Shown: positions 45,533 to 46,123 of the stretch, one piece after another | How positions within the stretch are numbered: position 1 is the first letter of the stretch | Layout: each line of letters starts with the position of its first letter | Assembly: GCA_028275705.1 (NCBI GenBank) | Contig: JAPWUD010000012.1 | Location: 1-46,123 of the forward strand | Reading direction: 5' to 3' | Length of the DNA stretch: 46,123 nucleotides | Source: Desulfurococcaceae archaeon | GTDB taxonomy: Archaea > Thermoproteota > Thermoprotei_A > Sulfolobales > Desulfurococcaceae | Program-made: the position numbers and the translations under genes | The notes under the pieces: generated by a model | Database searches by the model: none | What the model saw: the letters and a program-made list of their open reading frames with translations, nothing else | What the model was told of the DNA's origin: nothing

Positions 45533-45558
45533 CCACTCTAAAAACTTACTTTGAGTGG
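45533..45558 (+). terminator. Hairpin after thiL
   Basis: A perfect six-base inverted repeat, CCACTC (45533-45538) and GAGTGG (45553-45558) with a 14-base A/T-rich loop, starts four bases after the thiL stop. It could act as a 3'-end structure. No T-run follows, so factor-independent termination is not clear. Confidence 0.3.
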
Positions 45559-45702
45559 AGAGGATCCTGGACTTGCTTGGAGTAATTCATGCACAAATAG
45601 CCCCGCGGTTTAAGATCACTTATCAAACTCCGGCATTAGCTTCAAAAGTAATGCTCGCTACCTGTCAAATTTGCCCTTAGCACCTGTTTAAGCTTCATAT
45701 AG

Positions 45703-45867
45703 GTTTATAAGGCTTGGCGTTACCACATATTTTTGATGGGGTTTCCTGTGAGGGGTGAAGAGCTCATAGGGGCTCTCCCCGAGGGCAGCTCAAGATGTGG
45801 GGTCTCTGGGGTGGCCCTGAACGCCCCTAAGGCATATGCAGACCCAAGGAGCGATGCAGGGGAATAG
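45703..45867 (+). ncRNA. GC-rich pairable block: structured RNA or tnpB 3'-end relic
   Basis: This stretch is visibly richer in G+C than its surroundings and folds well. GGGG (45752-45755) plus AGAGC (45759-45763) pair with GCTCT plus CCCC (45772-45780). GGGTCT (45800-45805) pairs with AGACCC (45840-45845) and encloses GGGGTG (45808-45813) with CGCCCC (45822-45827). CCTG (45745-45748) can close the whole with CAGG (45857-45860). A TATA-like TTTATAA lies about 25-30 bases before 45735. The same bases are also open as a frame of 54 codons ending at TAG 45865-45867, from an ATG at 45736 for the last 43 (…GSSRCGVSGVALNAPKAYAD…), which recalls the C-terminal tails of archaeal TnpB proteins. The two readings cannot be separated by eye. 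Confidence 0.35.
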
Positions 45868-46016
45868 AGATGATGCGATGACCATAAAACAATATAAACT
45901 CATATAAGAGCTGAACCCCTGCACTAACACCACGAGGTATTTAAGCAGATAAGTATTTATTAATATAAAGGCTTCTTTGTCTGATGTAATGCCTCAATGA
46001 TTAAGGTGATCTAGTA

Positions 46017-46123
46017 GTGTCGAAGAACCAGGAAGTGTGGAGGAAAATGCCTCTACATAGAGCGGTACTTGAGATTGTGTTGTCTAAACCAGAGGGTATA
46101 ACAGAGTCTAAACTAATTGAAAC
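46017..46123 (+). CDS. N-terminal part of a winged-helix-like protein (partial)
   Basis: The window ends 35 codons into this gene. It starts with GTG at 46017, five bases after AGGTGATC (46004-46011), a near-perfect archaeal ribosome site. The visible residues (VWRKMPLHRAVLEIVLSKPEGITESKLIE) look like the first helix and turn of a winged-helix DNA-binding domain. The family cannot be named from this much. Confidence 0.6.
   Translation, partial: MSKNQEVWRKMPLHRAVLEIVLSKPEGITESKLIE

Follow-up and report, generated by a model that had tools for sequence, protein, structure and literature searches.

TnpB is thought to guard its own transposon against loss, and if small elements devoid of tnpB keep a working guide RNA, then this protection could be exploited in trans. 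The guide RNA of the TnpB of ISDra2 comprises the tnpB 3' end, the right end (RE) of the element and approximately 16 nt of flanking DNA, with the TAM lying at the left junction (PMC8612924). Elements of the IS607 family insert at GG, bear GG at their ends and generate no duplication of the target (PMC6188088, PMC10711439). In the archaeon Staphylothermus marinus, 14 MITEs of ~260 nt have been traced to IS607 elements (PMC2678158), and PATEs of IS200/IS605 elements have been described in Haloquadratum (PMC3119063) and Halanaerobium (PMC7290912). Finally, the RNA-257 paralogues of Sulfolobus solfataricus are transcribed intergenic RNAs, reported as antisense RNAs, whose source is the distal part of the second ORF (a putative transposase in the orfB position) of ISC1904, an IS607-type element that also carries a resolvase gene (PMC3674436).

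The locus considered here lies near the right edge of the window, by which we mean the whole stretch of 46,123 bases of Desulfurococcaceae DNA that was analyzed. An earlier note had singled out a GC-rich block in this region as either a structured RNA or a relic of an insertion sequence. As judged from its sequence, the block is a 244-base miniature transposon reduced from a larger TnpB-encoding element; the protein is gone, but the two ends and the guide-RNA segment are retained, and neither the idea of an orphan structured RNA nor that of a single decayed relic describes it. We give a probability of about 0.8 to the reading that it is a non-autonomous, MITE/PATE-like element derived from an IS607-type TnpB element via two internal deletions. 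Its parts are as follows:

45673..45675, + strand: left flank GCC, the TAM, holding the CC (=GG) exchange dinucleotide, as read from the empty site in G033
45676..45919, + strand: the whole miniature element, 244 bp
45676..45735, + strand: left end (LE), with the near-palindrome CATATA-GGTT-TATAAG (45696-45711) and the TATA-like TTTATAAGG at 45704-45712
45733..45867, + strand: open frame of 44 codons spanning the deletion joint, unlikely to be a gene
45746..45788, + strand: tnpB 5'-end remnant (VRGEE..ALPEG) with a ~24-nt internal deletion, matching the tnpB start in L005, L004, L082, L083 and L085
45783..45792, + strand: scar of the ~1.05-kb internal deletion, from tnpB codon ~25 to ~376, the joint being seen in other copies
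45789..45919, + strand: omega-RNA (reRNA) scaffold, that is, the tnpB 3' end plus RE, from sequence homology, the R1 covariance model and covariation
45807..45819, + strand: omega-RNA hairpin A, pairing 45807-45811 to 45815-45819; 3 of its 5 pairs vary on both sides
45859..45919, + strand: 3' helices, GGGG 45859-45862 with CCCC 45916-45919 and GC 45875-45876 with GC 45910-45911
45890..45919, + strand: RE tip, a near-palindrome that is an inverted copy of the one in LE, ending in GAACCCC
45920..45939, + strand: predicted omega-RNA guide TGCACTAACACCACGAGGTA, the 20 bases of host flank after the element

The composition that had drawn attention to the block is real: it reaches 61.5% GC at 45738-45867 as against 42.8% across the whole window, a value attained by no other 130-base stretch in the 46 kb, though the unit to which it belongs is larger than had been supposed and spans 45676-45919. 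The TATA-like element, the open frame (here counted from a TTG) and its TnpB-like tail (SRCGVSGVALNAPK, as compared to SRCGAPGVAPNTPK in the TnpB of L004) were likewise recovered. The argument from exceptional pairing, however, fails: the MFE is -51.4 as against -52.7 +/- 4.1 in dinucleotide shuffles (z = +0.3 and -0.6 for the + and - strands, respectively), by which an extra-stable fold is rejected. The earlier note could not match the block to SRP RNA or RNase P RNA, and we too found no match to these or to any other Rfam family; no Rfam covariance model scored above the gathering threshold in the window, with a single chance-level match around the block, and no tRNA was found either. As the fold is no better than shuffles on either strand, and Rfam and tRNA matches are absent, pairing alone carries no evidential weight.

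The boundaries of the element emerge from the orthologous spacer of a genome of the same genus (G033), which has an exact empty site, AAATTTGCC^TGCACTAA. Aligning AAATTTGCC^TGCACTAAAACC of G033 with AAATTTGCC[CTTAGC...GAACCCC]TGCACTAACACC of the window delimits the element as 45676-45919 with no target-site duplication, the exact joint being shiftable by up to two bases because CC is found at both junctions. GCC, or CC in a register shifted by one base, is also present at the left junction of most related left ends. A copy with 89% identity is found in the same genome (G000:C5:115647-115874), and it is likewise absent from its locus in G030 and G035; the search of this genome also showed that larger elements on contigs C22, C13 and C23 match the block in part at their ends. 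Another genus (G024) has an end-to-end copy with 80% identity. The same deletion scar is shared by four copies at unrelated loci in three genomes and two genera (window, G000:C5, G024 and G031), with small extra differences at the joint in the latter three. The classification as a MITE or PATE draws on the length of 244 bp, the absence of a transposase gene, and an LE and RE common to the full tnpB elements of C13, C22 and L082-L085. Thus, the idea of an insertion-sequence relic was right as to the origin from TnpB, but "relic" is too weak a term: the two ends, the empty site, the second copy sharing the scar and the copies in another genus together indicate that the element was mobile in the past, after the deletion that cost it its genes. 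Searches of plasmid and phage collections recovered no DNA similar to the element. In the same spacer, G033 has an extra ~110 bp (G033:C103:8630-8740) that is missing in the window at 45549/45550. Further to the right, window positions 45997-46123 are identical (100%) to the first 127 bases of contig C42, which is therefore probably the next contig, the cut being an assembly break inside a gene.

The derivation from tnpB can be followed in detail. C22 and C13 each have an intact TnpB gene, 402 codons long in the former and 417 in the latter, and both are above the NCBIfam guided_TnpB cut-off. Against full-length tnpB, the block comprises the first ~25 codons (with ~24 nt missing) fused in frame to the last ~27 codons, with the right end after them; some 1.05 kb of the gene is missing. 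An LE HMM built from 12 left ends also matches upstream of full-length tnpB in L005, L004, L082 and L083. The left ends of all related elements display the near-palindrome CATATA GGTT TATATG, and the right end the inverted form, CATATA AACC TATATG; in the window these give the inverted pair I2, 45697-45709 with 45893-45905. Nearly every related locus has CC as the last bases of its right end, and the left flanks are mostly GCC. The hairpin at 45752-45780 proposed in the earlier note falls within the tnpB 5'-end remnant. This hairpin, GGGGTGAAGAGC..GCTCTCCCC, also occurs with a longer loop at the start of full-length tnpB, and other mini-elements have a different hairpin at its position; hence, these elements may commonly bear a 5' hairpin before the omega-RNA. 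In the C5 copy, the LE (L053:1699-1741) is closer to the GTCGTGAAACTGCTTT type of a second mini-family (see below) than to that of the window copy, which suggests that left ends have been exchanged between families. In the full-length elements, the stretch from the left end to tnpB also includes a conserved ORF of ~85 aa on the opposite strand (L005:2771-3028, +), with similar sequence in L004, L082, L083 and L085 and no match in Pfam or NCBIfam.

The segment 45789-45919 is 74-88% identical to the RE of tnpB-bearing elements and matches the R1 covariance model with 132.9 bits over 129 of 129 positions, the window being among the sequences used to build R1. As RNAalifold on a first alignment had yielded an implausible outer stem, a larger alignment of 29 omega-RNA segments was used instead, and named helices were scored on it. 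In these helices 90% of the cells are paired, there are 18 double changes where shuffles give 4.5, and sliding the helix partners weakens the signal. The GGGG/CCCC and GC/GC helices are paired in 97% and 93% of cells, respectively, pair 45876/45910 switches from C-G to G-C in seven sequences, and a further short helix is seen near 45832-45833/45850-45852. Covariation thus gives a conserved omega-RNA structure moderate support, and only moderate because the events are partly common by descent and the helices were picked on the same alignment. The stems drawn previously can be placed on the sequence, but the one joining 45800-45805 with 45840-45845 is not conserved among the aligned relatives, and the GGGG at 45808-45811 fits better in a short hairpin with 45815-45818, within the covarying hairpin A, than in a stem with 45822-45827. 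The two ideas of a structured RNA and of a TnpB relic each hold in part: what derives from TnpB here is the omega-RNA region, and in full-length elements this region both codes for protein and forms part of the RNA. The particular stems and the folding argument are left unsupported. Between the window and C5 copies, only 2 of 78 positions differ in the omega-RNA core as against 30 of 158 elsewhere (p = 0.0002; a modest, non-independent test, whose contrast is weaker or absent in other pairs and not significant for G024-G031). This core conservation and the paired changes suggest constraint on the RNA, at least in the parents. The TAM plus seed of the predicted guide, GCCTGCACTAANACC, occurs once in eight genomes of the genus, namely at the empty site of G033.

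A serine recombinase of IS607 type is the most likely mobilizing enzyme. In L137 (G033:C37), the same LE (E = 9e-9) directly precedes a complete serine recombinase, which is followed by tnpB, and this recombinase is an IS607 transposase (NF033518, 8.9e-70); the LE model also matches upstream of a truncated IS607 tnpA in G034 (a fragment, L132). As L137 shares its left end with the mini-element and its right end lies off the contig, the case for IS607 is built on the left end, on the dinucleotide and on a survey of transposases. In that survey, Y1 tnpA is absent from 37 of the 40 genomes of the family, including those richest in these elements, and serine recombinases are present in 26 of the 40. 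The junctions read GCC at the left and CCCC at the right, with CC at both in most relatives, barring a few exceptions, and CC/GG at both junctions fits the GG rule of IS607 (PMC6188088). The IS607 TnpBs that have been tested have G-rich TAMs (PMC11061315, PMC10711439), unlike the GCC seen here, and in the window's own genome the three IS607-like recombinases all lack this left end. The hairpins had suggested an IS200/IS605 origin, with the same element moved by a Y1 transposase as a classical PATE with subterminal hairpins. Such an enzyme could be suited by the subterminal palindromes, and it would sit well with the lack of target duplication, the TnpB parent, the one intact Y1 tnpA in the genome and the PATEs of exactly such make-up (LE, last tnpB bases and RE) on record (PMC7290912, PMC3119063). 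We consider it improbable and dropped it on account of the Y1 and serine recombinase surveys and the occurrence of this LE upstream of IS607 tnpA genes. Moreover, RE mirrors LE in inverted form and each junction carries CC, no Y1 TnpA with these ends was found, and the sole intact Y1 tnpA in the genome, on C13, belongs to an element with unlike ends. In L137:2800-3075, the tnpB of the IS607 element is apparently interrupted by a short element with ends of the CCCCGCCC..GGGCGAGG type, like those of the resident Y1 element.

Solo omega-RNA elements extend beyond this family of copies. The window's genome has a second mini-family of eight copies of ~316 bp (L013-L020: two on G000:C25 and one each on C18, C24, C7, C40, C30 and C5:16967) with the same left end and a right-end CCCC; it has its own omega-RNA and is derived from a tnpB element on C26 (L032). 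The omega-RNA model of the first family recovers all eight of these along with their tnpB parent, and has matches in 19 of the 40 family genomes. In G001, a single contig of 1.3 Mb, there are 32 omega-RNA loci (G001:C1, L205-L236) in several subfamilies with 85-98% identity, and none of the ten TnpB domain matches in this genome adjoins any of them. Among the copies with aligned neighborhoods, the repeats are mostly ~200-360 bp and each has a different flank.

With its protein lost but both ends and the whole guide-RNA segment kept, the mini-element may be a small parasite that borrows the proteins of other elements. Under this proposal, an IS607-type serine transposase from another element would recognize both ends in trans and move it by exchange at the CC/GG dinucleotide. 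The TATA-like box in the left end would drive transcription of the solo omega-RNA, whose last ~20 nt would be host DNA to the right, giving a predicted processed RNA of ~150 nt ending in TGCACTAACACCACGAGG. More speculatively, it is possible that a resident TnpB, such as the intact copies of C22 and C13, loads this RNA and cuts the empty allele (GCC plus the guide sequence), which would favor the mini-element being recopied via homologous repair. That such solo elements are widespread RNA-guided parasites in the family, using the IS607 transposase for movement and the resident TnpB for homing, is a tentative idea that we consider rather unlikely as it stands. If true, each copy would carry its own guide to its own empty site, and a genome with dozens of them, such as the 32 loci of G001, would possess a dispersed guide set served in trans by TnpB, partly that of another element.

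An alternative that shares with the miniature-transposon reading the identity and past mobility of the element, and is thus not exclusive of it, holds that the RNA part does nothing: the omega-RNA region would have been kept only for its overlap with RE, and no functional guide RNA would arise from it. We give this somewhat less than even odds. The terminal palindromes of the window copy have undergone partial decay, the G001 mini-elements vary in the 5' part of the omega-RNA and many lack a segment, and the RNA may serve no purpose in that genome, whose 32 loci have no TnpB beside them. Yet the retained ~130 nt go far beyond the ~40-nt end palindrome, the core is conserved between the two copies in the window's genome alongside the paired changes, and a comparable set of IS607-derived RNAs is transcribed in Sulfolobus (PMC3674436). 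A small protein gene of 44 codons, to which the open frame with its TnpB-like tail might point, is very improbable and was rejected: the frame is an in-frame fusion of two tnpB stubs with no match to a Pfam domain, and indels break it in the C5 copy, where the omega-RNA core is nonetheless 97% identical. The GC island and the TATA-like element could also have spoken for an unrelated structured non-coding RNA gene in the spacer, a reading with a next to negligible chance in the face of the insertion polymorphism, the homology to tnpB elements and the unexceptional fold, and one which we regard as refuted by the empty site of G033 and the lack of an Rfam match.

The miniature-transposon reading can now be set against the known systems. 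The predicted RNA has the make-up of that of ISDra2 TnpB, with the TAM likewise at the left junction; however, in ISDra2 the RNA lies in cis with tnpB and a Y1 tnpA, whereas the present element has no protein gene. With the IS607 family it shares GG/CC at the target and terminus, inverted end motifs and the absence of target duplication (PMC6188088, PMC10711439), but IS607 elements encode a TnpA with HTH and serine recombinase domains, whereas this one is non-autonomous and has CC rather than GG on the guide strand, for which reason its TAM is GCC and not G-rich. The MITEs of S. marinus are comparable as miniature IS607-derived repeats in a related crenarchaeon (PMC2678158); they were described by their similarity to DNA upstream of transposase ORFs with no omega-RNA being recognized, as opposed to the present element, for which both ends, TAM, guide and parent are mapped. 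The IS200/IS605 PATEs are similarly core-deleted TnpB elements with near-terminal palindromes, moved in trans with no target duplication, and one of them retains 58 nt of the tnpB end along with RE; the present element differs in its most likely IS607-type serine recombinase and its insertion after GCC. RNA-257 parallels the predicted RNA of the present element as a transcribed RNA derived from an IS607-type element. Its paralogues, which are described neither as omega-RNAs nor as mobile (PMC3674436), are in our inference omega-RNAs, opening the way to a possible re-reading of transposon-derived archaeal RNAs of this kind. With IS607 MITEs, IS605 PATEs and transcribed IS607-derived RNAs already known, the present element is a further, well-mapped case of a known type, and its interest lies in making the use of solo omega-RNAs in trans testable.
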